From: Sacculina carcini
Taxonomy: Eukaryota > Arthropoda > Thecostraca > Sacculinidae
DNA length: 64,000 nt
NCBI GenBank assembly: GCA_916048095.2
Contig: OU696597.1
Span: 5,306,627-5,370,626 of the forward strand
Reading direction: 5' to 3'
Part shown: positions 8,236 through 64,000 of the stretch, one piece after another
Layout of the letters: the number at the start of each line of letters is the position of its first letter
Position numbering within the stretch: the first letter of the stretch is position 1
Program-made: the position numbers and the translations under genes
The notes under the pieces: generated by a model
What the model was told of the DNA's origin: nothing
The model's database searches: none
The model's input: only the letters and a program-made list of their open reading frames with translations

Positions 8236-10170
8236 TTTCTATTGGTCAAGATATTTATAGCTTACATTTTTTGCTTTTCAATTTGTATTCATTATATTTT
8301 ATGGATTTGATATGAATTTTATTGTATGAATTGTTCCGCACGACGGGTGAGTTTAAAAAAAGTGTTTTTAGTTCATTTTTTCAAATGGTTCATGATTTGC
8401 TTGATTGTATGAATTGCTCCGCACAACGGGCGGGTATTAATGCCATATATATACATAAAGAAGAAATTATCTGTCTGTCTGTGTATGTATGCTTGAATAT
8501 GAGGTGACATAATTGCGCAGGTTCAATGGTATATATATATACATAAAGAAGAAATTATCTGTCTGTCTGTGTGTGTATGCTTGAATGAGGTGATATAATT
8601 GCGCGGGTTCAATGGTATAGATCAGGGGCTTAATTGTTCCGCACGACGGGCGGGTAAAATGCTACTGGGAACAAAGTAAACTACTGAATTATTGTACCAT
8701 ATAGAACCATTAAATAAAAAACCATTATTATATAATAAAGAACCATTTGAATATTAGTTAGTTAGTTGTCATTAGTTGGTTTATATATAAAGAACCATTG
8801 GTGTTGGGGCTTAATTGTTCCGCACGACGGGCGGGTTTAAATATGAGGCTGTTCGAGGGAAAATGTTAAATGTTTTGCTTTTTAATTTGTGTTCAGTTTA
8901 TTTTATGGATTGAATATGCATTTTATTTTATGGATTGAATATGCATTTTATTTTATAAATTGTTCAGCACGACGGGCGGGTTTAAATATGAGACGGGCTG
9001 AAGGAAAATATGTTTAAAAAAATATAATTGAATTTAGACTTTTCAATTGAGTAAGATTTTAATGAGTATATCTGTTTTCTTTTTTAATTTGCAATATGTT
9101 TATGAATTAAATATGAATTTCATCTTATGAATTGCTCCGCACAACTGGCGGGTTTCAATGCTAGACGGTGATATTAAGTTATTAAAATATTTTGGAAACA
9201 TTATGATGAAAAAGTGTAGTCATTTTTCATTGTTTCGTGTCTGAGTTCTGAATTATTCAGCACGACGGGCATGTATAATTATGAGGCGGTTTAGGCAAAC
9301 TATTTTGTGAAAATAAATATGAAAATATAGAAATTTAGACTTTTGTATGGGTTTACTCAACTCTTTTTTAATTCATATTCCTTTTCTCTCATGAATTGAA
9401 TACAAATTTAATAGTATGAACTGTTTCGCACGACGGGCGGGTTTACATGCTAGGATTTTCATTGTTTGTTACGTGTTTGTGTTCTGAATTATTCCGCACA
9501 ATGGGTTGGTTTATATATGAGGCGGGTTGAGGGAAAATATTATGTCAAAATAAAAATAAAAATATTCACACTTGGACTTTTCTATTGAGTAAGACACTGA
9601 TGAGTTTTCATTTTCTTTTTTAATTTGGAATATTATTATGAATATGAATTATTATGAATATTAATTCCATTTTTTTGGAATTCCTCCGCACAACGGGCGG
9701 GTTTTAATGCTATATATATACATAAAGAAGAAATTATCTGTCTGTCTGTGTATGTATGCTTGAATATGAGGTGACATAATTGCGCTGGTTCATGGTTCGC
9801 TGGTTCAATGATCAGGGGCTTCAAACGCAAACGAAGCGATGGCTCATTTTTATGAAATAAAAATGTCCCGCGGGCAGCAATAAAACGTTCAATTTCACCG
9901 TGTAGAATGAATTCATATACAAAACTAATGGATTTGACTTCAAGAACCAGAACGGATGGTGTTCGAGTTCTGAATTATTCCGCACGTCGGCCGGGTTTAA
10001 ATATGAGGCGGGCTGAGTGAAAATATTTTGTCAAAATGTAAATTAAAAATAATGAAATTTAGACTTTTTAATTGATTAAGGTTTTTATGAGTTTGCCTTA
10101 TTTATTTTTAATTTGCAATATTTTTATGAATTCTTCCGCACAACGGGCGGGTTTTAATGCTAGTATAAAT
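8236..10170. repeat. Mosaic of GC-motif Helitron-like fragments
   Basis: Motif copies (CCGCACGACGGGCGGG or close variants) lie near 8334, 8418, 8636, 8819, 8965, 9137, 9262, 9420, 9684, 9978 and 10135 in otherwise AT-rich DNA. Intervals are irregular (~85-300 bp). At 10135 the motif is followed by TTTTAATGCTAGT, matching the CTAG|T rule for Helitron 3' ends. No open frame looks coding. Confidence 0.65.
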
Positions 10171-14000: not shown

Positions 14001-14196
14001 GTAGTGTGTGCCTACACCGCCAGAGGGCGCGAGGGTATTAGGCGTGGGTGACGCTAACGGCCGTCAGCCAGTGTGTGTACAGCAGTGGTGGTGTGTGTGT
14101 CGTGGCGTTGTATCATTCTATTGTTGTTGTATTGTTATTGTTATTGTTGTGTTGAGTGCTCGGTGAGATAGATCCGTTGCTATAATATATCGTACA
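14001..14196 (+). repeat. Gypsy-1 5' LTR (first base in gap)
   Basis: The 196 visible bases match 18606-18801 with no difference that I can see. The LTR is 197 bp, TGTAG...TACA. Its last base is the A of the gag start codon. Identical LTRs indicate a very recent insertion. Confidence 0.95.
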
Positions 14197-17100
14197 TGGC
14201 GCAGCCGCTGCGAGACGAACAACAGCAGAAGCTGGACCAGCTCACAGAGTTGGTGACTCAGCTCGCTCGCCAGCAGCCTGCAATGGCAGCCCCCGCCAGC
14301 TCGTCCGCAGTCGCCCCACACACCATGGCTCATTGTCAGCCACCAGCCCGTCTGGCCTACGCAGCATCGGCAGCCGACTTTACCTCCTGGAAGGAGCGCG
14401 TGCTGGCACACACCACATTGTCAGGCAGTGATAGCCTGAGCCCTGCGCAGCAGCAAGCGCTGCTCACGACACTGCTGGACGACGAGTGGTGCCGCGTCAT
14501 CCGCCACTCACTGATGCTGCCGGCGACGGCTGATTTGCCCGCCTGCATCCGCCTATTGGAGGAGCATCAGCAGTCGCAGCAGAATGTGCTGGTGGAACGC
14601 CGGCGCTTTTTCGCCCGTCGACAGCAGGACGGCGAAAATGTGGGCGAATTCTTGCGCTCGCTGCGAGAAATTGCTGCCAGCTGCGATTTTTGCGCTGCCT
14701 GCCGCGACGAGCGTTTGCGTGACCAGCTTGTTATGGGGACGTCCGACTCTGCCGCTCTGCACCAGCTCCTGCAAGTCGCGCACAGGGACCTGTCGTTGGA
14801 CAAGGCACTCAAAATGTGCCAATCGGCTGAGTCAGCCCGCTTCAACGCTGCAGCTATGCGAAGCGCCTCGGCCGATGTGACTGGTTCCCCGGTTCCCCGC
14901 ACAGAGGTCGCGGCTGTACGCCGTCAGCAGCCGCGCATGCGCAGTCAACTGAGCCGGCAGTCAGATCGCGACGATGGCTCCGCCCCTTGTGTGCGGTGTG
15001 GGCAGCATCACCAGTCGGCCCCGTGCCGCGCCGCGGAGAGCTTGTGTCGTCGGTGCGGAAAGCGCGGGCACTACGCGCGCGTCTGCCGCTCATCACAGTC
15101 CCGTGCTGGCCGTCGTCGGGACAATTTTGTCAGAGACGTCGCCGATGACACTGATGATGATGTTGACGGTGTTGTGAATGTCAATACACCTGCTTTGTGC
15201 TCGTATATCGGCGATGTTTTTGATGACTTTAAACACACGCGCGTAACCGCTATTAGCATCACCGTTTCTGCAGAGGGCCGCGCGCCGCGCGAGGTTAAGT
15301 GGCGATGCGATTCCGGCGCCGATGTGTCGGTAATTGACGCTGGGATTGCGCAGCAACTTGGAGTGGCCAACAATAGTTTGCGCCCACCGCGGTCACGCTT
15401 GCGGGTCGCCAACGGTCAGTTACTGCGGTGTCTGGGCACGTGCGAGGCAGTCTTGCGACTCGGTGATGCCTCCTGCCGCTCCACTCTGTACGTGGTGCCG
15501 TCAGTGCGCTGTGCTCTGCTCTGCTGGCGAGACGCAGTGGAGCTGCGTCTACTGCACCGCGCATTCCCTCGGCAGATGTCTCGCGAACATCACCTGCAGC
15601 AGGTGACCGCTGGACCGGCAGCCACACCTCAGCAATGCCCGCGCTGGACCAACACAGCTCAGCCAACAGCGGCGGATCGTCGTTCGCATAGCGAGCAGCT
15701 TATAGCGGCCTTCCCTCGTGTGTTCTCCACGGACGGTCCTCTCCGGGAGATGAAAGGCGGGGCAATGCGGATCGATCTGCGCGATGAAGCGGTGCCGTAC
15801 AACGTGACGGCTCCCCGCTCCGTGCCGTTCTGTCATCGCGCCCAGGCACAACAGCAGCTGGAGCTGCTTCAGCAGCAGGGCGTCATCGAGCCGGTCTCCC
15901 ACCCGACAGACTGGTGCTCACCGATCGTCGTTGTCGGCAAGCGCAAGGCAGATGGCACGCCAAACGGCTGCCGACTCACGGTGGACTTCACACGCCTCAA
16001 CCGCTTCGTTCGCCGGCCTACGCATCCGGTTCGCTCGCCTGTGGAGGCTGTCAGCAGTATGGGCCTCGGCAATCGGTGGTTCACCCAGGTGGACGCATTA
16101 CAAGGGTACTTTCAGGTGCCCTTGCGGCGCGAGCACCGAGACCTCACCACCTTCATCACCCCGTGGGGCCGATTCAGGTTCTGTCGCGCGCCTATGGGCC
16201 TGGTCTCCAGCGGCGACGAGTTCAACCGACGCGGCGACGTCGCCTTGTCTGGCCTACCCGACTCCTGCAAGATCGTGGACGACGTGCTGGTGTATACCGC
16301 CAGCTACGACGAGCATCTGCAGCGAGTCTGGCAGCTGCTACAACGCTTCGACGACGCCGGCGTTACGTTGAACCTGCAAAAATTTATGTTCGCCGCCACT
16401 TCCGCCAATTTCTGTGGATTCCACATCAACGCCTCTGGATTCACCGTCGACCACAAGAAAATTCGAGCCCTCGCAGAATTTCCCGCGCCGACGGACCTTA
16501 CATCCCTGCGGTCCTTTCTCGGTTTGGCGAACCAGTTCGGTGACTTCTCGGACTCCATCGCCTCCGCTGCTGAGCCCCTGCGCCAGCTGCTCCGCAAAGG
16601 CGTCGAGTGGCAGTGGTCGTCACAACACGACGCTGCTTTCACGGCCGTAAAACGCGCGTTGGCCAGCCCTCCTGTGCTTGGTCACTTCGACCCAACGCGG
16701 CCCACAATGCTGGAGACGGATGCAGCACGTGAGAAAGGTCTCGGATTCGTTCTTCGCCAGCGGGATGATCAAGGCCGTTGGCAGCTGATCCAGTGTGGGT
16801 CGCGATTTGTGTCCGACACCGAAAGCAGGTATGCTGTGTGTGAGTTGGAGATGCTGGCAGTTGTGTGGGCATGTCAGAAATGCCATCAGTATCTGGCTGG
16901 CCTCCCCACGTTCAGTGTGGTCACCGATCACAAGCCTCTCGTTCCGATACTGAACGAGAAGGCACTCGGAGACATCTCCAACCCGCGCCTGCAACGTATG
17001 CGACAGCGTCTGCTGCACTTGACTTTTGTCGCTAGTTGGAGACCGGGTGCAAAGCACAACATCGCCGACGCTCTGTCGCGCGCACCTTCCCAGCCTGCTG

Positions 17101-18596
17101 ATGCTGACGCTGACGTTGACGAGTGCTCGTCTGGATTCTTCGTCCAGACGCTGGACGCGTTCACAGACGCAGACGACCTGGGTCATCGCACGTCACCGAT
17201 TGACACCACCCTGGAGGCGGTGCGAGCTGCGTCTCTGGCCGACGATGAGTGTCGCCAATTGATGACGTACGTGCTGGGCGGTTTCCCTCAGCACAAACAT
17301 CTGCTGCCCGCCAGTCTCCACCCATTCTGGGGCGTGCGCGACCAGCTCACTGCGGACCATGGGCTGATCCTGGTCGGCTGCCGCCTGCTTGTGCCCAGGT
17401 GTTTGCGGAAGGACACCCTCCGTCGGCTCCACGACGGTCACCAGGGGCAGGCCAGGACTGTGCAACGCGCACGGCAAACTGTCTTCTGGCCGGGCCTGAA
17501 CAACGAAATCGCCACTGCCGTAGCATCGTGCCGAAAATGTCTGCAGTACAAAGACAGCCAGCAAAAAGAGCCATACCTGACGGAACCGCACCCGACACGT
17601 CCTTTCGAATCGGTGTCCGCGGATTTTTTCCAACACGCAGGGAAGACCTACCTCGTGTGCGCGGACCGGTTCTCCAACTGGCCACTGGTGTTCGACTGTG
17701 GCCGTGACACCTCGGCTCATCAGCTGGTGAAGATGCTACGACATGTGTTCGCCATGACGGGGGTTCCGACCATACTGTCGTCAGACGGCGGTCCACAGTT
17801 CACGGCGCGCCACACGGCCGAATTTCTGCGACTTTGGCACATACGCCATCGTGTCTCCAGTCCGCACTTCCCGTCTTCCAATGGGCACGCTGAGTCCGCC
17901 GTGAAACGGGTGAAGCGGCTCATTCAGAAGGCGGCGCACGACGGGAACATCGACACAGACGCCTTTGTCGCCGGTCTGTTGGAGCTGTGCAACGCGCCGG
18001 GTGCCGATGGTCGCTCCCCCGCGCAGCTTTTGTACGGCCGCCCCGTGTCGTCCGCCGTTCCCGCGCATCCACGCTCGTTTCTGCCGGAGTGGCAGCCGCC
18101 CACCGCTGAGTGCGACCGGCGAGCGGCGAGCTTACACAACAAGCAGGTCGCCCAATACAACCGGTCGGCTAAGGTGTTGCCGCCGTTGCGGCCCGGCACT
18201 ACGGTGGCTCTCCAGGACCCGACATCCGGTCGCTGGGACCGGACTGGCGTGGTCGCCATGACTGGCCGTCGCCGCCAGTACGCTGTGCGCCTGCCTCACG
18301 GCGGTCTCTACTGGCGCAACCGTAGACACCTGCGACCAGCAGCCAACACACCCTCGCCCGTGGTACAGCCGCCGCTCGAAGTGCAGCCGCCGCCATCTGT
18401 TGGCACGGCGCCGCTAACGTCGCAGGAGACCAGAAGCAGACCCGCATCACCGCCGCCGCCGCCGGGGGAGAATGTGGGCGGTACATCGGAAGCCTCACGA
18501 ACCCCGCAATTCCGCCGGAGCGCCCGAACACGCAGACCACCGTCGCATCTGAGCGATTACGTCTGCAGAGCCGACAGCGCCCCCTCCACCACTTGA
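14196..18596 (+). CDS. Ty3/Gypsy Gag-Pol polyprotein, intact (Gypsy-1)
   Basis: One 1466-residue frame encodes the whole retrotransposon. In order: a Gln-rich, probably coiled N-terminus and Gag; two CCHC-type knuckles near 265-277 (CVRCGQHHQSAPC) and 283-297 (CRRCGKRGHYARVC); aspartic protease with DSGADVSVI near 371; reverse transcriptase with VDALQGYF near 628 and IVDDVLVY near 693 (I in place of the usual Y/F before x-D-D); RNase H with LETDAA near 838; integrase with an HHCC zinc domain at ~1078-1120 and a DD35E core (ADFF near 1141, SSDGG near 1195, GHAES near 1231); and a Pro-rich tail. Gag and Pol share one frame with no shift or stop. The coding region is clearly GC-rich, unlike the AT-rich flank. 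Clade not assigned. With intact LTRs this copy looks potentially mobile. Confidence 0.95.
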   Translation: MAQPLRDEQQQKLDQLTELVTQLARQQPAMAAPASSSAVAPHTMAHCQPPARLAYAASAADFTSWKERVLAHTTLSGSDSLSPAQQQALLTTLLDDEWCRVIRHSLMLPATADLPACIRLLEEHQQSQQNVLVERRRFFARRQQDGENVGEFLRSLREIAASCDFCAACRDERLRDQLVMGTSDSAALHQLLQVAHRDLSLDKALKMCQSAESARFNAAAMRSASADVTGSPVPRTEVAAVRRQQPRMRSQLSRQSDRDDGSAPCVRCGQHHQSAPCRAAESLCRRCGKRGHYARVCRSSQSRAGRRRDNFVRDVADDTDDDVDGVVNVNTPALCSYIGDVFDDFKHTRVTAISITVSAEGRAPREVKWRCDSGADVSVIDAGIAQQLGVANNSLRPPRSRLRVANGQLLRCLGTCEAVLRLGDASCRSTLYVVPSVRCALLCWRDAVELRLLHRAFPRQMSREHHLQQVTAGPAATPQQCPRWTNTAQPTAADRRSHSEQLIAAFPRVFSTDGPLREMKGGAMRIDLRDEAVPYNVTAPRSVPFCHRAQAQQQLELLQQQGVIEPVSHPTDWCSPIVVVGKRKADGTPNGCRLTVDFTRLNRFVRRPTHPVRSPVEAVSSMGLGNRWFTQVDALQGYFQVPLRREHRDLTTFITPWGRFRFCRAPMGLVSSGDEFNRRGDVALSGLPDSCKIVDDVLVYTASYDEHLQRVWQLLQRFDDAGVTLNLQKFMFAATSANFCGFHINASGFTVDHKKIRALAEFPAPTDLTSLRSFLGLANQFGDFSDSIASAAEPLRQLLRKGVEWQWSSQHDAAFTAVKRALASPPVLGHFDPTRPTMLETDAAREKGLGFVLRQRDDQGRWQLIQCGSRFVSDTESRYAVCELEMLAVVWACQKCHQYLAGLPTFSVVTDHKPLVPILNEKALGDISNPRLQRMRQRLLHLTFVASWRPGAKHNIADALSRAPSQPADADADVDECSSGFFVQTLDAFTDADDLGHRTSPIDTTLEAVRAASLADDECRQLMTYVLGGFPQHKHLLPASLHPFWGVRDQLTADHGLILVGCRLLVPRCLRKDTLRRLHDGHQGQARTVQRARQTVFWPGLNNEIATAVASCRKCLQYKDSQQKEPYLTEPHPTRPFESVSADFFQHAGKTYLVCADRFSNWPLVFDCGRDTSAHQLVKMLRHVFAMTGVPTILSSDGGPQFTARHTAEFLRLWHIRHRVSSPHFPSSNGHAESAVKRVKRLIQKAAHDGNIDTDAFVAGLLELCNAPGADGRSPAQLLYGRPVSSAVPAHPRSFLPEWQPPTAECDRRAASLHNKQVAQYNRSAKVLPPLRPGTTVALQDPTSGRWDRTGVVAMTGRRRQYAVRLPHGGLYWRNRRHLRPAANTPSPVVQPPLEVQPPPSVGTAPLTSQETRSRPASPPPPPGENVGGTSEASRTPQFRRSARTRRPPSHLSDYVCRADSAPSTT
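14197..14208 (+). promoter_or_regulatory. Primer binding site, tRNA-Ser-like (Gypsy-1)
   Basis: TGGCGCAGCCG starts directly after the LTR and differs by one base from the complement of an arthropod tRNA-Ser 3' end (TGGCGCAGTCGG). It overlaps gag codons 1-5, so there is no untranslated leader between LTR and gag. Confidence 0.6.
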
Positions 18597-49459: not shown

Positions 49460-49725
49460 TGTAACATAAATTCAAAACTCTAAATTATATTACAGACAGG
49501 CGCGCGTGGGCATCGCCGCCCCATGCGCGCCTACAAGACGTCACATTCCAACAACACCTCGAACACGACTCCTGGCTCACACCGTGACACACGGGAGCAC
49601 ACATATACACACACACACGCACAGGCCCAACGCTCACCAACACAACCAATCAGCGGCGAGCCGGTCACTCGCTCGCCGCCGCGGGCATCCACACTTGACA
49701 AACTCACACACACATACATATATTT
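49460..49725 (-). repeat. Solo LTR-like copy of the hairpin LTR family
   Basis: Starts TGTAACATAAATTC (compare TGTAACATGAAAAA at 53812) and has the hairpin at 49499-49531 (arms GGCGCGCGTGGGC and GCCCCATGCGCGCC), then CA-rich sequence as in the other copies. No internal region or second LTR is present. The right end is approximate. Confidence 0.55.
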
Positions 49726-50251
49726 TTGGAGGTTTTTTGCACCACTTTGGTGGTGGTGTAGTGGTGCGTGGGAGTCCAGTGGATGTTGTGTGATGTGACC
49801 TCGCCGGTGTGCCGGGGCGACGGTTGCATTGAGATTCCATAGAGGCTGCCAAACTTCGATGGTTTTTGAATGGGTTTCCGTTGTATTTGTTGGATTGGTC
49901 AGATTTCCTGCTTCATTAGCTGACATAAATCTGATAGCAGAAACTCGTGCTGTGAATCCTGACGGTGCCTCAATTTTCTGCATGAAATGCAGAAATTTAG
50001 AATAGTTAATATAAACTAAGTGCTTAGTGTTAATATTACCGCATCAGGGTACAGGATCGTAAGTGATTGTAAGTGGTTAGTCTCTGAAGTGTGAGGCCGT
50101 GTTTCTCCTATGCTCCTCCTAGTCTTGTCAGGTACGACAGCCCGCCTCCTGTTGCGTTAGTGTGCTTGTGTCGACTTTGCGTCAGTGTGTCTGCTGTCTG
50201 CCACCCCACCGGTCGCCGTGGACACTCCATATATAATAAACCAGGATCGAC
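49726..50251. other. Unassigned; probable 5' UTR of the next element
   Basis: The last ~250 bp before 50252 may be the 5' UTR of the nuclear-receptor-finger retrotransposon. No promoter motif is convincing. The antisense open frame at 49780-49983 has no recognisable domain. Confidence 0.35.
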
Positions 50252-51574
50252 ATGCCGGATCACAAGCGGCACCCAACCGAGCTTGAATGTGCCGTGTGCA
50301 CAGCCACCGTACAGAGAGCGCAGCAAACCGGCCCTGTGGTCTGCCCGGCCTGCCGCCAATTTTTCCGCCGACAGCAGCACGACATACGACTAAACAGACG
50401 TTGCGCCCGCAATGGTAATTGCCCGACAACGCGGTCGTCCCGCTCATGCGTCCCTTGTCGACTAACCAAATGCCTCGCCGCCGGCCTGCAACCCGCACAA
50501 CCTACAGGTGACGTAACATCCGACACCGGGGAACCACACGAACAGCCTAGTTCCCCGGCCTGCTCTGTCTGCCTGTCCTGCAACAGCAGAAAGAGGACGA
50601 TTATTTGCGCAACTTGCACAAGTCATTTCCACCACTCCTGCGTGGGCGTCACCCGGGCTCAGGCAGAGGCACTACCTGTGTGGAGCTGTAATGATTGTCT
50701 GCGTTATCGCGGCGAGAACTATAACATAGATGCGCCCGACGAGATTGACAGCAATACACCAGCCGACCTCACCGCCGCACTTTCCGAGTTGCGTCTGCGA
50801 TCCAGTGTGCGCCAGCACGTGCCACGCGCTCTGCAACATCGAGTTGCAGCCAAACTCGCGCAGAGAATCACGGCCGCAATGGAGGAGCGCTCTTACAGTG
50901 CTTGGTGGCGTTTGCTGTCATACACAGCTACTGGCCCGTTCAGTAGAACCAACCCAGCCACTGCCGACATACAGCGGCGAACCGCGCTTAGGGCGGAAAG
51001 CAAGGACGAAGCCAGATCGCGCTGCGTTCGAAACAAGTGCGCCGACGGCGACATTGCTGGTGCACTCCGATTGCTCACTTCATGTGACAGTGTGGTTGGA
51101 TGCAGCGAAGAAGTGACCAGGGAGCTGGAGGAAAATCATCCAGCAGCGCTCGATGACGAACAGCCCCCGCCACGTCGCGACTGCCCCGAGCTCCGCGTAG
51201 AGAAGCAGGAGGTCCAGAAAGCCATCAACAGCCTGCCTAAAGGCTCCTCTGGTGGACTCGACGGCCTAAGGCCCCTTCACTTTCGCCAACTTATCTCGCA
51301 ACAAACGGCAGAGGCTGGTCAACAGCTGTTAGCTGCACTCACAGCGCTATCCAATTGCGCCATCGCCGGCCGGATTCCAGACTGCGTCAGACCCGCTTTC
51401 TACAGCGCGCGTCTCATTGCCTTGCGCAAGAACTCGGGGGGATTACGTCCCATTGCCGTTGGCAGTGTTCTCAGACGCCTCGCCAGCAAGATTCTGGCCG
51501 GTAAGATGGCAGCAGCTGTGGCACACGCGCTGCAGCCTATCCAACTGGGCGTGGCCAACCCGCTCGGATGCTAG
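50252..51574 (+). pseudogene. Non-LTR retrotransposon ORF: nuclear-receptor-type zinc fingers, PHD finger, RT N-terminus
   Basis: 440 codons from ATG to a TAG. Residues 13-79 fit a nuclear-receptor DNA-binding domain: C13-x2-C16-x14-C31-x2-C34, then RQFFRR; second module C51-x5-C57-x8-C66-x2-C69, then RLTKC and LAAGL. The FFRR and CRLxKC signatures are hallmarks of that family. Residues 104-149 fit a PHD finger (C104, C107, C119, C122, H127, C130, C146, C149). After a linker, the RT begins (KEVQKAINSLPKGSSGGLDGL, LIALRKNSGGLRPIAVGSVL, QLGVANPLGC). The fingers probably guide target binding, by analogy with zinc fingers in other endonuclease-bearing non-LTR elements. The TAG sits in the RT and the frame stays open beyond it. 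Confidence 0.85.
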
Positions 51575-53361
51575 GCAGCCGTGCACGCCACCCGCGCCTT
51601 CATTGCGAACCACGAGGATTGCAGCGGACACATCTTACTAAAACTCGATATGTCCAACGCATTCAACTGCATAAGTCGCACCCACATACTGGCTGAAATC
51701 TATCGTCGTTTCCCCGCCGCTCTGCCTTTGACCCTGCAGGCTTACGGTGAGCCGACTCCCCTCTACCACGGACCTAACTGCGTCTGGTCGTGCAGTGGCG
51801 TTCAGCAGGGGATCCTCTCGGACCACTGTTATTCGCCCTGGCCGTAGACTCTATCGCACAGTCAAGGGAATCACCTTTAAGCGTGCGGTACCTTGACGAT
51901 GCGACTCTTGCCGGACCAAGACAAATGGTCCTGGTAGATGTTGGCCGCCTTCTGCCAGCTCTCCACAACATTGGCCTAGACATAAACGCCAACAAATGCG
52001 AGGTAACTCTCCTGGGCCCACCTGACGACAAGAACGACGGACAGAACAACGCAGCAGCATTGTTAAATGAGGCGGCGAAGACTCATCTGGAAGTGCTGCA
52101 GCTCCTCGGCGCCCCGGTCAGAAGCGGCGGCATAGGCAGGGCGCAGGACATCATCAGCGACGCCACAGACTTGCTGATTGAGAGAGCAGGCTACATCGGC
52201 TCGCACCCGGTGCTGTTCTTCCTCGGCAAGTACGCGTCGGTGCCGTGAGCCGTGTACTTGATGCGGGCGGCTCCGTGCTACAGAGCAAGGGACCAGCTGA
52301 GGATTATAGACGAACGCCTCCGATCGGCCATCAGCGCGTGCTGCAACGTCCAGCTGAACGATGATCGGTGGATACAAGCGTCGCTCCCAGTTCGAATGGG
52401 AGGCATAGGTGCTAGGCGTCTGGAGGACGTGGCCCTGCCGGCTCACATCGCCTCTCTGGTGTCCGCTGGAGACCTGGTCTGTCAGATTAACCGTCGCAGC
52501 AGCGACGATAGACCCGGTCCTCCGTTGGCTGTCATCGAGGAGTACGTCGGCCGTCAGTGCCCGGACTTCGGTGCGGATGAGCCCCACAATCAACGCCATT
52601 TGGACGAAAGAGCGTCCCGCGCTCGCCTAAACAGCCTGCTGGATCGCGCCGACCAAGTGGACCGTGCACGGCTGAAGGCCGCTGCAGCGCCCCACAGCGG
52701 ATCCTGGCTAGGGGCCGTACCGGTCGCCAACCTCGGTCTGCTCCTGCCGAACGAAGCCGTGCGAATCGGTGTGGCGCTACGCCTAGGAGCGGCTGTACAG
52801 CAGCCACACAGATGCCGCTGCGGCAAGACCTCAGACGGATGGGGGCATCACAGCCTCTCCTGCGACGGCTGCGCCGGTAGGCTGCCACGGCGCAAGGCGC
52901 TAAATGATGTCATCTATCGTAGCCTGGCGTCAGCCGGCGTAGGAGCGGTCCTGGAGCCACGAGGCCTCGACCGAGGAGATGGCTGACGTCCAGATGGCGT
53001 AACAATCTTCCCCTTCCGTATCGACAAGTGGCTGCTTTGGGACGCAACATGTGTCAACACATTCGGCGCCACACACCTTGTGGAATGCGCGGTCGTCCCA
53101 GGAGCAGCAGCAAAGAGCGCAGAGGAGAGGAAGCGGCGGCGCTACGCTGAACTCAGCCAGCGGTACGATTTCGTGCCTCTGGCCGTGGAGACCACCGGCG
53201 TACTAGGCGAGGCTTTCGAAGAGCTGATAAAGTGCCTCGGTCATCGCATGAGTGCAAGGAGTGGAGAGCCCCGCGAAACTGCCTGGTTGAGACAGCGGAT
53301 CGGTCTGGCTGTCGTCCGCGGTAGCACCGCAGACATCTGCCAACTGGGCAACCTTACATAA
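51575..53361 (+). pseudogene. Same element: RT palm and C-terminal restriction-like endonuclease
   Basis: After the TAG the frame continues (AAVHATRAF, LLKLDMSNAFNCI = motif A) to a one-base loss in a G run at 51808-51811. The next frame carries GDPLGPLLFALAVDS, RYLDDATLAG (x-D-D) and LGLDxNxNKC-like sequence, a TGA at 52246, thumb and linker, then a zinc knuckle (CRCGKTSDGWGHHSLSC). The endonuclease core follows, with a TGA at 52984 just before RPDG and with LLWDATC, matching the RPD...D pattern. It ends at TAA 53361. C-terminal restriction-like endonuclease and single-ORF layout place it with the R2/NeSL/CRE-type early-branching elements; exact clade not assigned. Three stops and one frameshift make it inactive. 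Confidence 0.85.
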
Positions 53362-53364
53362 TTA

Positions 53365-53640
53365 TGTGTATGTGTGCGTTTTTAAAGTTGTTGTGTATCA
53401 CACACACACACACACCGACACAGCTATACATACTCGCTCACACGCTCTCGCTCACACACTCGCGCATGCAATACGCAATTGAACTGCACACGATCACACA
53501 TAGAAACACTAACAGGTTCACGCACACACAATCTCAGTCAACGTAGACACAATCTCTCACACACACTCTCTCTCACTGCACACGATCACACCACAATTCT
53601 ACACATCAATTGTTACAAAATTATAAACAGACGTTCGTGT
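53365..53640. repeat. CA-rich low-complexity sequence
   Basis: CACACACA and CTCACACAC stretches directly after the retrotransposon stop codon; possibly its 3' UTR. No gene seen. Confidence 0.5.
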
Positions 53641-53811: not shown

Positions 53812-54033
53812 TGTAACATGAAAAACACAACTTTAAGTGAATGAAACTATGTATAAAAAGACAGGCGCGTATGGGACAGCGATGTCCCACACGCGCCTAT
53901 AAGAGCACACGACTCAACGACCACGTCCGAACACCCCTTATCGTCTCTCACATACCAACAGGACACCCGATCATCGCCGCGTGATGCCCAGAACGCATCG
54001 TGCAAACGCAGCACTTTGCGACCGCTGCACTTT

Positions 54034-54106
<73 letters not shown>

Positions 54107-54221
54107 TACATACACAATGTGCACAGCACCAAGCCAACAATACAAGAAGCATATGCCCACACACACACCCATACGCACATAACGAAAACCTTTACTGCAC
54201 CTTTACTACACGACAACTACA
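53812..54221 (-). repeat. LTR-hairpin element B, 3' LTR
   Basis: 410 bp, TGTAACATG...GACAACTACA on the plus strand. The hairpin is at 53864-53897 (arms GGCGCGTATGGGACA and TGTCCCACACGCGCC around GCGA), with a long CA run at 54039-54092. The adjacent CCTCCCCCTG (54222-54231) is the complement of a polypurine tract. Confidence 0.85.
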
Positions 54222-54976
54222 CCTCCCCCTGTTTCTTAAGAAACAAAGGAAGGAAAGAAAATAACAAAAGCAATCACGCACTCTATCAACTAGCACTGGC
54301 ACCAAAGTTCACACATGCATCCATGTACAAATTACCGCGCATCTAACTAACAAACTAACCAAGCAATTAAACAGGCAAAAACAGCGCCAACAGCAGCGTC
54401 ACTCGACGGCCTCCACCATGCGCACACAGTGGCTGCGGCGAAGCACAACACGTCCCCCGCGCTCCCGCCTCGCCCGTGCTCTTCAGTGCTCCGCCGCAGC
54501 CTGCCATCTTCATCACCGGCCACCGCGACAAGGTACAACACTCCTCGGCCCCAGCAACCTCCGTGCTCCCGCCGCCACCCGTGCTTTTCAGCACCCTGTC
54601 GCAGCCGGCCGTGATCCACCGTCTACACAGGCCGCGCGGTCCCGTCCTCCGCTCAGATCCTCCCGGCTTCGGCAGCCTTCACTTCACATCAGCGCTCCAG
54701 CACCAGCAGCTTCCTCCGACAGGTCAGCGACGTGTCCAGAGCAAGCGGGCCGACAAGCACCCTCGGACACAGCTTCCCCGCTGTCTTCAGCCGGCACCAC
54801 GCTTCACAGTCGCCCCCTGCAACACTCTCCTGTCACGTCGCTGAACACCGTTCCATGCCTGTCCGCCGCTGATGCTGAAGGCATCGTCACCACTGCTGCC
54901 GAATCCGAGTCAAAACTCCCACCACTCTAAAATTATCCAACAAAAGTTATCCATAATCCAAAAAGACGAAATAGCT
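54222..54976 (-). mobile_element. LTR-hairpin element B, noncoding interior
   Basis: 755 bp, homologous to 24717-25416 in opposite orientation. It is GC-rich in the middle (54400-54900), and open frames there do not resemble Gag or Pol. Bounded by LTRs at 53812-54221 and 54977-55357 with an exact 5-bp duplication CACGG at 53807-53811 and 55358-55362, it is a complete nonautonomous LTR element of 1546 bp. An autonomous partner is not in the window. Confidence 0.8.
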
Positions 54977-55357
54977 TGTAACATGAAAAACACAATTTTA
55001 AGTGAATGAAACTATGTATAAAAAGACAGGCGCGTATGGGACAGCGATGTCCCATAAGCGCCTATAAGAGCACATGACTCAACGACCACGTCCGAACACG
55101 ACTGCCCACATCGTCTCTCACATACCAACAGGACACCCGATCATCGCCGCGTGATGCCCAGAACGCATCGTGCAAACGCAGCACTTTGCAACCGCTGCAC
55201 TTTGCAAACACACACACACACACACACTCGCACACAAACATACATACACGATGTGCAAAGCACCAATCCAGCAATACAATAAGCATAAGCCCACACACAC
55301 ACACCCATACACACATAACGAAAACCTTTACTACACCTCTACTACACGACAACTACA
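54977..55357 (-). repeat. LTR-hairpin element B, 5' LTR
   Basis: 381 bp, about 95 percent identical to 53812-54221 apart from a shorter CA run. Hairpin at 55029-55062. Confidence 0.85.
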
Positions 55358-55362
55358 CACGG

Positions 55363-59642: not shown

Positions 59643-60446
59643 TCAAACACGTTGAAGTTCTTGATAGTAAAATGTACCGGTAATCAAATTTCCATCATCA
59701 TCACACAGCTTATACATGGGAATTGATCGACGTTTGTATATGGAAGAAATTGTGAACACCTCGCTGCTAAATGTCTGTCGATATCCTTTTTCAAATATAG
59801 TTTTCGGAATAAACATTCGCACATGATCGCCTACGCGTAACTTTGGTGTTTGTTTTTTACGCGACAATGTGTTGACCAAGTGTTGATTTGATAAAGTTAC
59901 AGCGCGAGGTGCCATACCGATTGATCTGTGTACAGTGTTGTTATACAAATTCACCAATTGAGGTAGATTTTTGACAAAATGTTTTGTGTTGTTTTCGGTC
60001 ATAAACTTGTGTATCAGCGAGAGCAGAGTACGGAAAAATCGTTCAATTATCCACGCCTTCCGTATGATTGTAGATGTCGTATAATGATAGATGTTGTGCT
60101 CTTTCATTACACGTTGAAATTCTCGCCCTGTGAATTCACCACCATGGTCGCTCATTATTTGCATCGGTGTGCAATTGTTGGTGAGAATATGGTTCATTGC
60201 TTTGGCCACGGCAGGTCCCCGTTTACTATGTAATGCACACACATATGCTTGTCTGCTAAACACGTCAATTACACCCAACAAATAACGCACTTGTGTGTTA
60301 TGCCCACGCAGACGTGAAACATCGCACAAATCAACTTGCCATGTATCATTTAGTCCGGTGGAGGTGTATGCATTGTGTACGAAGCGCTTACGTACTTGAC
60401 GATGGAGTTGTTTGGTTCTTTGCGACCAAATCAGCTTACTATCCAT
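59643..60446 (-). CDS. Polinton/Maverick retroviral-like integrase
   Basis: 267 residues. Catalyses insertion of the element's DNA. Core: D in DTWQVDLCDVSR, then YLLGVIDVFSRQAYV, D in IMSDHGGEFTGREFQ, E in IRKAWIIERFFRTLLSL, with NLYNNTVHRSIGMAP and a C-terminal SH3/chromo-like part (LRVGDHVRMFI, FTISSIYKRRSIPMYKL). N-Q-x-E is changed: the catalytic Glu lies in WIIER, where K-x-x-I-V-E-R-F-N-R-T-L is usual. The upstream gene overlaps it by 16 bp. The frame is intact and ends at TGA 59643. Compared with fuller Polinton integrases, an N-terminal zinc domain may be missing. Confidence 0.9.
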   Translation of the reverse strand: MDSKLIWSQRTKQLHRQVRKRFVHNAYTSTGLNDTWQVDLCDVSRLRGHNTQVRYLLGVIDVFSRQAYVCALHSKRGPAVAKAMNHILTNNCTPMQIMSDHGGEFTGREFQRVMKEHNIYHYTTSTIIRKAWIIERFFRTLLSLIHKFMTENNTKHFVKNLPQLVNLYNNTVHRSIGMAPRAVTLSNQHLVNTLSRKKQTPKLRVGDHVRMFIPKTIFEKGYRQTFSSEVFTISSIYKRRSIPMYKLCDDDGNLITGTFYYQELQRV

Positions 60447-60958
60447 TTGCGTGGGATATTTGCCGATTGTTGGCCAACTGTCGAAACTCGCTGCCCGTGA
60501 ATATTCGGGGCAACTTCTCGCGGTAAATTCAACGACTCAATCAATTGTCGCAGCTGTGCCCACCCTGCTGGCTCAGGAACACTTTTACGACGTCGGACAA
60601 TATAGTTTACCAAGTCGACAATATTGCTCCGAGGAATTTGTGCGTGATTGAGATAAATGATACCAGTGTTGTTGTCCCATCTCAGCACAGTACTCAATTG
60701 GGAAAGCACGAATTGTGCGTGTTTTTTATAGCTTGACGGTACAAGCTGGAGCCATTTATCAGACTCTACAGACGGAGCAGGAGCAGCGGACTGTTCAGGA
60801 CGCCAGGCGTTCATGTAATCGATCCGTTTCGCTTCGGCATTCCCTGTAGACTTGTTGAGAATTTGCTCCAGAGCGGATGTGGGTGTGGCCATGTTTCGAC
60901 CTTGCATTTCATCATATGTGGCTTGCGATAGGAGAACCATTCGTTGGAAGGCGCTCAT
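60431..60958 (-). CDS. Conserved Polinton protein, function unknown
   Basis: 175 residues. Start MSAFQRMVLLSQATYDEM; a middle part with VPSSYKKHAQFVLSQL and VLRWDNNTGIIYLNHAQIPRSNIVDLVNYIVRRRK (two motif blocks), then EPAGWAQLRQLIESLNLP. The motif order I-P-x-S-N-I-V-D-L-V-N plus P-x-G-W recurs, as I recall, in a small conserved protein of Polintons and related viruses. No catalytic motif. Its ATG shares one base with the stop of the next gene upstream, and its end overlaps the integrase by 16 bp, so expression is probably coupled. Confidence 0.7.
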   Translation of the reverse strand: MSAFQRMVLLSQATYDEMQGRNMATPTSALEQILNKSTGNAEAKRIDYMNAWRPEQSAAPAPSVESDKWLQLVPSSYKKHAQFVLSQLSTVLRWDNNTGIIYLNHAQIPRSNIVDLVNYIVRRRKSVPEPAGWAQLRQLIESLNLPREVAPNIHGQRVSTVGQQSANIPRKWIVS

Positions 60959-61287
60959 TACTTTGCAGACAGTATACAGCTTATAACCGATGTCACCACA
61001 GGTATAAGGGCGGAGAGAAATTTTCCGCTCTGCACCAGCACTCGTTGTTTTTTCTTCAGTGACGGACGTTTGTCACCCAATTTACGTAGTATTTTCTTGT
61101 ATTTGGATAGGCGACGCTTTTGTTTCTTTTCCAAAGGGACACGGTCTTGCAAAAGGTTATGACAAATTTCACAAATAGACCGTATCAGAGCAGGGTCGTA
61201 CGTGTTGAGAACGGCTTTTTGTTGACGATGTGTGAGACGCGGAAGTGCTTCGATTGTCGGCCAACAGCGTTGCAACGTCGACGACAT
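60958..61287 (-). CDS. Small basic Polinton protein with hydrophobic C-terminus
   Basis: 109 residues. A first half with LPRLTHRQQKAVLNTYDPAL, a very basic centre (PLEKKQKRRLSKYKKILRKL) and a hydrophobic C-terminal helix (GKFLSALIPVVTSVISCIL). Small basic proteins ending this way occur in Polintons and adintovirus-like elements and have been compared with adenovirus core or membrane-active peptides; that comparison is from memory and tentative. It lies 34 bp after the ATPase gene and its TAA shares the A of the next ATG. Confidence 0.65.
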   Translation of the reverse strand: MSSTLQRCWPTIEALPRLTHRQQKAVLNTYDPALIRSICEICHNLLQDRVPLEKKQKRRLSKYKKILRKLGDKRPSLKKKQRVLVQSGKFLSALIPVVTSVISCILSAK

Positions 61288-61321
61288 GCTGACAAATGAT
61301 TCACTTGTTCAACTATGTATG

Positions 61322-61981
61322 CTATTTATACCTCAAAGCGGGAAGATAAACTATTATGGGCTGTTCCAACACATTGCTACGCACACGTAGTCTGTTGTCA
61401 GTTTGTTGACGCAAATCCACAAGCAAATGACCGTACATTTTCTTCATTACGTCTCTATAAACATCCATAATGAACCTGATATTATCTGGCATGTACTGTT
61501 GAGCAAATGCACGCAGAGGTGTTTGATCTCGAAAATTACGGAAAAATACATAATAATTTGTATTCAGGCTGATTGTCCGGTAGTTTGGCGACTTGAGAAA
61601 CGTGTTTTGGGTGACAAATAGTACACTCATGTTGTCGTGACGCGACGTTTTCGTAAACATATCACGTACAACTGGTCCTTCCACAGCATCCAGTAAGTCG
61701 TCGATAATGACCATGCAACCATTACCGTATTTATGTTTGCTTGCCAGTCGTTGAATTTCCTCATGGGATGGCACTCCGTACTGCATCTCATTAACTAAAC
61801 TCTTGTCTATATGATCGGGCGCTGCAGTTCCATGACAATACAGTACATGGTCGGGGCGTTGAGTCAGCACCTGGTCCGCCCGTGTCAGCATGTCAACTAT
61901 AAATTGACTCTTACCGGACCCTGAAGGACCGGACAAGATCATTGTGAACGGTGTAACAAGACGTGCGTCAAATGTTTCCAT
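61322..61981 (-). CDS. Polinton FtsK/HerA-type packaging ATPase
   Basis: 219 residues. Predicted motor that pumps DNA into capsids, A32-like. Walker A GPSGSGKSQFI at ~19-29, Walker B GCMVIIDDLLD near 88-98, sensor-like VLFVTQNTF near 122-130, then TNYYVFFRNFRDQ and LLVDLRQQT. Length fits Polinton ATPases. Intact frame, same strand as all neighbours. Confidence 0.92.
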   Translation of the reverse strand: METFDARLVTPFTMILSGPSGSGKSQFIVDMLTRADQVLTQRPDHVLYCHGTAAPDHIDKSLVNEMQYGVPSHEEIQRLASKHKYGNGCMVIIDDLLDAVEGPVVRDMFTKTSRHDNMSVLFVTQNTFLKSPNYRTISLNTNYYVFFRNFRDQTPLRAFAQQYMPDNIRFIMDVYRDVMKKMYGHLLVDLRQQTDNRLRVRSNVLEQPIIVYLPALRYK

Positions 61982-62015
61982 ATTCGCCGTGCCGATTAAA
62001 CTGATCTTCGTTTAA

Positions 62016-62213
62016 CTATAGGGTTATTATATAAAGTATTTTTGCTAATGTGCGACTGGTTTTGCGCTGAGCATTACTAGCCAAACACCCGCGACGCTTA
62101 ATCGGATCATATAACAATCCCACAATTACCAGCTCAATACCGAGAATTAAACATTCTGTAAAGTTGACTAGGAGTAATAGTGAAAGAAGCAGCATTTTTA
62201 TATACGTCACCAT
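62016..62213 (-). CDS. Possible small membrane protein
   Basis: 65 codons, 34 bp upstream of the ATPase gene on the same strand. An N-terminal hydrophobic segment (MLLLSLLLLVNF...LGIELVIVGLLY) is followed by a basic tail (RRGCLASNAQRKTSRTLAK). Size, spacing and orientation fit the compact Polinton block, but I do not recognise it. Confidence 0.4.
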   Translation of the reverse strand: MVTYIKMLLLSLLLLVNFTECLILGIELVIVGLLYDPIKRRGCLASNAQRKTSRTLAKILYIITL

Positions 62214-62279
62214 CTCGATAATCGCCGATCAAATGACACGTTTACACATCAACACCTGTATATTAAAGCCTGCATAACT

Positions 62280-62282
62280 AAC

Positions 62283-62365
<83 letters not shown>

Positions 62366-62416
62366 GGCGCGTGCCGGGGCTCTCGAAAACCGGTTCAACA
62401 TACGCATACACATACG

Positions 62417-62450
<34 letters not shown>
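62280..62450. repeat. (CA)n microsatellite
   Basis: Two CA runs (62280-62362 and 62418-62448) separated by ~55 bp. It lies between the small membrane frame and the polymerase gene, so the Polinton has been invaded by simple repeats or contains them. Confidence 0.95.
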
Positions 62451-62631
62451 GAAACATGTGTACACACTAACACAGCTAACACACTAGCACAATTAACACA
62501 CTAACACAGCCGACACTTTTATATTATAAACCAATACATCTAGCACAACTAACACACCTAGCACAACTAATACTGGTAACACAACAAATATATAGCAATA
62601 AATAACGATGATGATGATGTCGGTCGGTCGG

Positions 62632-64000
62632 TCAGTCGATGAAGCCATACGGGAAGGTACGATAATCGGGAAGGACCCTGCGTTTACTGGACACTAACCT
62701 ATTAATTTTTTCCCCTCCCACCGTAATTATCTTAAAATCTGCAGTCTTTTTAAATTGTCGAAAGGGGACTTTGATTGTGGACCCAGGCGCTTCTAACAAG
62801 GATCGGAAAGCGTCCAAGGAAATAAGCTGCTGCGTGTCGTGTGTTTGTGTGATGCCGCGCATTTTTACTATAGTCTTGGTGCCCCCGTCTGGTGTGTGTA
62901 CAGTAAAAGCGTAATTTTTGGGAGACAGGCAGACTATATGAGAAATATAGCTGCCTGCCCCGAAACAAGTCAGTTCGTCAGTCATGTCGCCGAGAAAATG
63001 TGATGTGTGTATGCGCGGCATTTCTGGTGATGCTTTGTAAATGACTGAATCTGTGTCACAGTATATTAGCTGAAAAGGATTAAGGCGTTGCAGGAAAGAG
63101 TAAAGATAAAGTCGGGATTGGCAAGTGACAAAGGCAGCAACGATTATGTTAGTTTTAAGCGGACCGGCCACAGTCTTGTCTTGTCGATGGGAATACGTCA
63201 GCCTCCATACATCGTGCATTATGCTGTCCCCCTCACTATCGTCAGCCACCGATATGAGGTCACACGCGGAGACCTCCATGTCGGGATCCTCCAGCAGATC
63301 GTAAACACGACGCATGGAAGTGACGTATTCAGTCTGCCCCAGGTTTGCGCGCTGAGCCAACTTGCCCCACTGGCTGTTGAGGCACAATTTGGCCACAGCT
63401 CTCAGGCCCGGATTCCTCTCAATGGTCGGCAGGGTTATACCCTCACGCGCTTCGAGAGTCTGTCGGTAGTCGTGTCGGTCGTCGTCAGTCTGCACGTGAG
63501 TGGGATAACCCTCGGCGCCGACCTTGAGGGCGTAAAACTTGTTTACATATTCTGCAAACAATCCGCCTGCCTCGCCGTCGTTGAGCTGTGTGGTGTTGGC
63601 AAAGTGCCAGAACTCGTGGATGGAAGTGAGCCGATACCCCAACCCCAAAGCTTTTGCTACTTCCAGCGACACCCAGCTGGAAGTGAGACTGCGCTCCTCG
63701 TCCGAATGGTGACACTGCGGCGACCTCGTGGTGAAATTGCCACCGATACCCTGCTCGGCACATGTTCTACACAGGGTGAACATGAGGCGGTCGTTGATGC
63801 GTGCGGGAAGGACGGGAACGTGAAGATTATGCGGAGGGAGAATTGTGCAATAAATGATGCCGAAATATTTGTGAAAATCTGTGATGGGAGGACGGAAAAT
63901 GTGAGAAGGATGACCGAGGGGAAATTTTCCGTTTTTAAGGATGTAAGGATACAAGGAGCACACATCAACGTACTCGATCCGCTCGTCACCAGCACATTCG
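62632..64000 (-). CDS. Polinton protein-primed DNA polymerase B, C-terminal part
   Basis: Runs off the window, so the exonuclease domain and start are not seen. Visible: motif A (YVDVCSLYPYIL, 63940-63975), motif B (KLCLNSQWGKLAQRA, around 63345-63390; NSQWG in place of NSxYG), motif C (YCDTDSVIY, around 63040-63068) and a K-x-R-G-like KMRGI near 62860. The TPR-type insert region of protein-primed polymerases is represented by the 80-200 residue stretch rich in Cys/His (LCRTCAEQGI, QCHHSDEERSL). It copies the element from a terminal protein primer. The frame is open to the TGA near 62632. Confidence 0.93.
   Translation of the reverse strand, partial: ECAGDERIEYVDVCSLYPYILKNGKFPLGHPSHIFRPPITDFHKYFGIIYCTILPPHNLHVPVLPARINDRLMFTLCRTCAEQGIGGNFTTRSPQCHHSDEERSLTSSWVSLEVAKALGLGYRLTSIHEFWHFANTTQLNDGEAGGLFAEYVNKFYALKVGAEGYPTHVQTDDDRHDYRQTLEAREGITLPTIERNPGLRAVAKLCLNSQWGKLAQRANLGQTEYVTSMRRVYDLLEDPDMEVSACDLISVADDSEGDSIMHDVWRLTYSHRQDKTVAGPLKTNIIVAAFVTCQSRLYLYSFLQRLNPFQLIYCDTDSVIYKASPEMPRIHTSHFLGDMTDELTCFGAGSYISHIVCLSPKNYAFTVHTPDGGTKTIVKMRGITQTHDTQQLISLDAFRSLLEAPGSTIKVPFRQFKKTADFKIITVGGEKINRLVSSKRRVLPDYRTFPYGFID

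Follow-up and report, generated by a model that had tools for sequence, protein, structure and literature searches.

The 64-kb stretch of contig OU696597.1 analysed here (the window) contains a decayed copy of a non-long-terminal-repeat (non-LTR) retrotransposon, the predicted protein of which begins with what is almost certainly a nuclear-receptor-type DNA-binding domain (DBD). As judged from its sequence, the element is an R2-like non-LTR retrotransposon of the restriction-like-endonuclease (RLE) type in an apparently animal genome, and insertion very probably prefers (CA)n microsatellites. Nuclear-receptor DBDs are parts of animal transcription factors; if the assignment is true, the receptor fold is used outside them. 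Microsatellite-specific elements and PHD fingers in long interspersed nuclear elements (LINEs) are known already. What appears to be new is the receptor DBD in a retrotransposon: no earlier report was found among the titles and abstract openings listed from the open-licence literature, where no paper was found to name zf-C4 together with reverse transcriptase and retrotransposon (a prior description is possible).

Identity of the head domain

The whole 440-residue open reading frame (ORF) of the window copy was matched by Pfam zf-C4 (PF00105) with E 1.5e-8 (35.4 bits; cut-off 21.1); its first 90 residues, for which this profile search had been suggested in a preliminary description of the window, gave a significant match of 40.6 bits (E 3.6e-10). 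A phmmer search against PDB chains returned ROR-gamma (2.2e-9), NR1D1 (4.7e-9) and COUP-TF1 (3.7e-8); 94 distinct PDB sequences were found at E up to 1, and the best 60 of the 94 are all receptors by name. The domain keeps all eight zinc cysteines in the arrangement C-x2-C-x14-C-x2-C and C-x5-C-x8-C-x2-C, with the x14 and x8 spacings as first described, and has both FFRR and CRLTKC...GL. Both Cys4 zinc modules and the two core helices were found, and in a structure model the predicted fold matches the nuclear-receptor DBD. Ten representatives, one from each subfamily (see below) and the protein P0019 of another record, all passed the zf-C4 cut-off (31.3–62.7 bits) and likewise the PHD cut-off. 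With zf-C4 above its cut-off in the window ORF and in all of these, the proposal that a receptor-type DBD stands at the N terminus of a non-LTR element is borne out.

Nuclear receptors share DBD sequence and predicted fold with the element, which differs from them in that its DBD is fused to reverse transcriptase (RT) and endonuclease and in that no Pfam match to a ligand-binding domain was obtained in P0019 or in the genomic copy L123. The predicted element protein thus carries a receptor-type domain and is not a nuclear receptor.

Organisation of the window copy

The features of the window copy are as follows:

49722..53400, + strand: element copy, subfamily W, decayed (3679 bp; ends common to W copies in blastn, junctions read)
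49722..50251, + strand: 5' untranslated region retained in the window copy (shared 5' boundary up to the ATG of the ORF)
50252..51574, + strand: ORF with DBD and PHD finger, 440 amino acids (aa; from the ORF list)
50285..50491, + strand: nuclear-receptor-type DBD (zf-C4), aa 12–80 (Pfam, phmmer against PDB, alignment of the representatives, structure model)
50561..50698, + strand: PHD finger, aa 104–149 (Pfam, 26.4 bits; cut-off 24)
51425..52032, + strand: RT core, interrupted in the window copy (RVT_1 fragment match; 5' limit inferred from the P0019 alignment)
52813..52863, + strand: CCHC zinc knuckle (CRCG...GHHSLSC) before the endonuclease (read by eye; in relatives, this motif is aligned to R2)
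52890..53343, + strand: RLE (RPDG ... WDAT; tblastn and profile alignment of relatives to R2; 5' limit approximate)
53401..53415, + strand: CA tract immediately 3' of the window copy (read at the junction; family-wide pattern)

Positions 49722 and 53400 are the shared ends of most W copies in blastn; W copies elsewhere start about 55 bp further 5' than the window copy and have about another 28 bp, followed by an A-rich tail, at the 3' end. Its decay comprises in-frame stops at 51572 (TAG, interrupting the RT core), 52246 (TGA) and 52984 (TGA, within the endonuclease) and a frame change near 51808–51811, inside the RT region. RVT_1 matched aa 7–81 of the ORF at 51790 with 25.4 bits, below the cut-off of 29.6 on that fragment; in P0019, RVT_1 covers aa 375–570, and aa 503–1023 match window positions 51808–53343 in tblastn. 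The preliminary description had placed the DBD in frame with the PHD finger, RT and endonuclease. For the window copy this is correct for the PHD finger and incorrect for RT and endonuclease; it applies in full to intact copies, in which all domains lie in a single ORF of 1023–1065 aa (P0019, 1023; L098, 1028; L100, 1030; L018, 1040; L123, 1065).

Class of element

A profile of 30 relatives matched R2 proteins at 1.4e-42 and 2.9e-42 over a region from RT through the knuckle to the endonuclease; the RPDG...WDAT motif was aligned to the PD...D of R2, and RVT_1 was above its cut-off in P0019 and L123. RT, CCHC knuckle and RLE lie in one ORF, as in the R2 group, and the element bears the marks of target-primed insertion: the 3' end is fixed, copies are truncated at the 5' end and the tail is A-rich. 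The element shares these three domains (profile 239–955) with R2 (R2Bm, R2Tg; PDB 9nl3, 9dou), as well as an N-terminal DNA-binding head before RT. The R2 head consists of zinc fingers and Myb and its target is 28S rDNA, whereas the element has a receptor DBD and a PHD finger and junctions with (CA)n. It falls outside the R2 clade in the narrow sense, defined by insertion into the 28S rRNA gene, since copies of subfamilies A and B sit in (CA)n.

According to the available part of PMC12222951, the N-terminal zinc finger and Myb of R2 bind 22–34 bp upstream of the cut. Microsatellite-specific RLE families are described in the accessible sections of PMC4640811, namely Togen (fish, NeSL-related), specific for (TG)n, and families of HERO; a receptor DBD or PHD finger is unmentioned for Togen in those sections, and the likeness to Togen is one of endonuclease type and target. 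CR1 and L2 LINEs carry a PHD finger in ORF1, a suggested targeting aid (PMC4120745, in part); they share the PHD finger with the element and differ from it as apurinic/apyrimidinic-endonuclease elements, and the term 'nuclear receptor' is absent from that paper.

Copies and subfamilies in the assembly

The assembly of the window (264,436,087 bases, 43 contigs) was searched with the 440-aa ORF; of 455 candidates, 96 were scored. The counts are therefore minimum values, in which a few fragments of one copy figure as separate matches. At least 98 matches were obtained. The DBD is spanned by 87 of the 98, and 42 of these 87 lie within open frames of 1000 aa or more and have no stop in the match; the question of whether other copies keep the domain was thereby answered in the affirmative. 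Of the two observations named in advance as fatal to the preliminary description (no significant zf-C4 match, or other copies lacking the segment), neither was made. A zf-C4 family search of the assembly (150 of 213 candidates scored) gave 67 of the 87 DBD-spanning matches a row of their own and left 20 without; three of the latter were read (L084, L087, L088), and the DBD was visible in all, one cysteine short in L087. This is a hazard for annotation: at least 67 of 148 zf-C4 matches in the assembly, and more by sequence, are element copies and not receptors.

The remaining 11 matches start further in, three at aa 24–29 and eight at aa 91 or later. Those starting at aa 91, 106 and 121 (L027, L028, L029) were considered as DBD-less relatives or alternative N termini and rejected: L027 and L029 are 5'-truncated subfamily A copies adjoining CA repeats, and L028 has a DBD upstream of a frame break.

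The copies were assigned to subfamilies named W (window), A, B1, B2, C1, C2, C3, D and E, to be counted as at least eight because B1 and B2 are close. The N termini of A, B1, B2, C1, C2 and C3 are 41–44% identical to the window, and in their alignment with it the eight cysteines and the core receptor residues are invariant. Retention of the DBD across diverged subfamilies agrees with the earlier view of long independent evolution rather than recent capture. Long open copies are numerous in subfamilies A and B. The zf-C4 score is lowest in A (31.3 bits); the DBD of E is the most receptor-like (62.7 bits; about 68 bits in the family search): its module 2 has a spacing of x9, and it shows the pattern CGDTA...NYG...C..CREFFRR...CRLSKC...GM. 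The P-box reads CPACRQ, CRACDV, CPACKI, CRACQA, CRACLV, CRACSV, CRACNV or CPSCRE, according to subfamily. At L036 (C22:6176490-6184990), C2 5' fragments of about 1.0–1.25 kb lie in a row around a longer copy, possibly as a tandem array.

Relatives in other databases

A protein database search with the read-through window sequence (residues 1–520) gave 45 matches, among them P0019 (1023 aa, single ORF; 98% of the 520 residues covered, 48% identity), which has zf-C4, PHD and RVT_1 domains. When further carriers were sought in the protein database with aa 1–140 of P0019, none but this protein itself was found among the 36 candidates of similar length. P0021 starts inside the DBD tail (MRRCLDAGM), the N terminus of P0020 is unlike a DBD there, and P0022 starts later; P0020 and P0021, lacking a complete DBD, were not counted as carriers although they are nested in the carrier clade.

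PHD-bearing relatives (P0001, P0002, P0003, P0023, P0024, P0025, P0026, P0027) are of the same RT protein type, with PHD before RT, the PHD matches of P0001, P0024, P0025 and P0026 being below the PHD cut-off. They differ from the element in being without zf-C4 in the domain scans made, and in some of them there is a second PHD finger, a 2A-like peptide or a ubiquitin protease at the C terminus. A UCH ubiquitin-specific protease domain is part of the same protein in P0027 (1508 aa; after the endonuclease, E 2.4e-65), P0028 (1373 aa) and P0035, and was matched by 3 of the 30 members of a set of relatives, A1. In P0002, P0003, P0025 and P0030, which have no receptor DBD, the motif DVE.NPGP, which we take to be a 2A-like peptide, occurs upstream of the PHD finger. 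P0039 has a SUZ12-like zinc domain (PF23320; E 3.8e-8 in one A1 member).

No relative was found on viral contigs in two scans. Contigs of prokaryote genomes yielded nine loci in metagenome-assembled genomes (27–33% identity); at none of these 9 loci, the element ends of which are unmapped, was CA or TG repeated over 10 nt or more 3' of the match.

Phylogeny and selection

The RT-based tree comprised 63 rows: nine from the genome, of which those of C3 and E are partial, and the 54 P rows with a length of 500 aa or more. All ten carriers fall within one clade of 13 rows with full support (Shimodaira–Hasegawa-like approximate likelihood ratio test, 100). Its non-carrier rows, P0020–P0022, are nested, and the DBD label needs two changes on the tree, which suggests one gain followed by loss or truncation in P0020–P0022 (loss and incomplete contigs being indistinguishable). 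Subfamily E is the deepest carrier; as it is also the most receptor-like, this fits a single capture followed by divergence.

A DBD tree of 68 columns, in which one branch is starred, was built from nine element rows and seven presumed host rows. The element DBDs lie opposite the seven presumed host DBDs across one branch (96/94), in a tree of long branches and few columns, and midpoint rooting puts E on the host side. Identity of the element DBDs to the seven presumed host receptors is 0.29–0.48, and there is no evident donor among these seven. Between B1 and B2, nonsynonymous divergence (dN) is 0.037 and synonymous divergence (dS) 0.389 over 62 DBD codons; for the other 35 subfamily pairs silent sites are saturated (dS undefined or above 1) and dN is 0.34–0.69. 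With dN far below dS between B1 and B2, the DBD is apparently kept inside the mobile element.

Insertion sites

For subfamilies A and B, 40 3' ends chosen from the 98 matches were fetched and 36 were scored; L048, L066 and L070 were without the 3' core motif and L065 was masked. By eye, L048 and L070 lead into CA. On the sense strand, the 3' untranslated region is followed by an A-rich tail with scattered C, and this by (CA)n. Within 100 nt, a run of 10 nt or more was of CA at 31 of 36 ends and of TG at one (background at 8572 window positions outside the element: CA 1.7%, TG 1.3%), and A runs of 6 or longer occurred at 33 of 36. The strict CA rule failed at five ends, four with short or imperfect CA repeats (L042, L047, L068, L073) and one with TG (L062). 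CA runs of 18–30 nt were present at all four ends taken from C3, D and E (two from E). The 5' start motif was found in 9 of 20 fetched A/B copies; for eight of these nine, the 60 nt upstream include a CA run of 10 or longer, and the ninth is CATA-rich; 5'-truncated copies join into CA tracts. One repeat is thus far over background and strand-preferring, as in microsatellite targeting.

The DBD had been suggested to steer insertion to hormone-response-like sites, with AGGTCA as a possible shared target at the junctions. Neither AGGTCA nor TGACCT occurs in 8500 nt of 34 A/B 3' flanks (Markov means 0.82 and 0.43), and AGAACA occurs twice (Markov mean 8). The suggestion therefore fails; the shared feature is (CA)n, weaker in W, C1 and C2, where old or broken copies may have decayed or targeting may be looser.

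Proposed insertion mechanism and alternatives

We consider it somewhat more probable than otherwise that an R2-like lineage with a receptor DBD as its head inserts into (CA)n by target priming, with the DBD helping in docking. The endonuclease would nick the TG strand, and the TG 3' end would prime on the A-rich tail of the element RNA, giving the product order element, A-rich tail, (CA)n. Strand-fixed (CA)n junctions, taken with general knowledge of target-primed reverse transcription, point to the TG strand as primer. The receptor-type DBD would help to dock the protein on or beside repeat DNA, and the PHD finger may read chromatin. Since the DBD occupies the position of the R2 head and CA lies upstream of full A and B1 copies, its simplest role would be to dock on the repeat or close to it; that it docks on target DNA at all is favoured by a narrow margin. 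One capture of the DBD may have preceded the split into at least eight subfamilies. The fuller proposal, that a single captured hormone-receptor DBD replaced the R2-type head and became a docking module for CA-repeat chromatin, is about evenly balanced, with the doubts slightly ahead.

Several observations weigh against these proposals. The P-box varies between subfamilies. In receptors the P-box reads bases; where subfamilies share the target, the DBD thus either has some other function or does not read CA repeats through the P-box. The (CA)n preference could be due to RT, to the endonuclease or to pairing of the tail by itself, and no DBD-less relative that would serve as a targeting control was seen in the assembly (45 of 1705 candidates scored). 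At the junctions, L066 has neither tail nor CA and L062 faces TG; in a set of 18 3' ends from mostly older copies (nine W, four C1, two C2 and three A) the CA pattern is weaker, with a CA run of at least 10 at 8 and TG at 1, and the 5' ends of this mostly W, C1 and C2 set gave CA at 9 of 19 and TG at 0 of 19. As to the domain itself, the best Foldseek E to a receptor is 2.2e-3, with none below 0.001; mean predicted local distance difference test scores are 55–61 in four of the five models; module 1 spacing (x12–x15 across subfamilies) departs from that of receptors; and zinc cysteines or part of the DBD are lost in the single copies L023, L026, L033 and L087.

A substantial, though less probable, alternative is that the (CA)n preference comes from endonuclease or RT together with pairing between the TG primer and the A/C-rich tail, while the DBD binds element RNA or DNA or a host protein. 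Targeting without the DBD is favoured by the P-box variability, A-rich tails with interspersed C blend into CA, and receptor DBDs can bind RNA. The precedent of R2 speaks for docking instead, because its zinc-finger and Myb domains, at the same N-terminal position, make contact with target DNA upstream of the cleavage site (PMC12222951, as far as available).

Direction of insertion to hormone-response-like half-sites would suit a receptor fold and is highly unlikely, given the absence of both half-site orientations from the 34 flanks and the insertion of A and B in (CA)n. An independently arisen look-alike, that is, a double treble-clef zinc domain not descended from receptors, is equally hard to credit: the spacing and P-box departures and the modest score of subfamily A could be explained in this way, but the fold match of the window DBD and, in subfamily E, the score, the x9 spacing of module 2 and the receptor residue pattern argue for descent. 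A local chimera, with a host receptor exon fused by chance to a retrotransposon, would account for nothing beyond the single window copy and was rejected as next to impossible, other assembly copies and the representatives keeping the DBD, which is common to at least eight subfamilies and to P0019 of another record in single long ORFs.

Should docking by the DBD be correct, the family would be a natural experiment in the re-aiming of a retrotransposon by domain swap. It makes testable whether an R2-like element can take a different DNA-binding fold as its N-terminal module and have its target determined by the swap; subfamilies with differing P-boxes, many long open copies and PHD relatives without a receptor DBD are resources for this question.

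Neighbouring sequences in the window

Two alike CA-rich stretches (53826–54230 and 54960–55360) form a direct repeat 3' of the element, as read by eye. An open polyprotein of 1466 aa with RT, RNase H and integrase domains, presumably Gypsy-like, lies at 14196–18596. On the minus strand, at the right end of the window (59643–63963), are pieces of an integrase core, an A32-like ATPase and a type-B DNA polymerase, which we take to belong to a Polinton/Maverick-like element.
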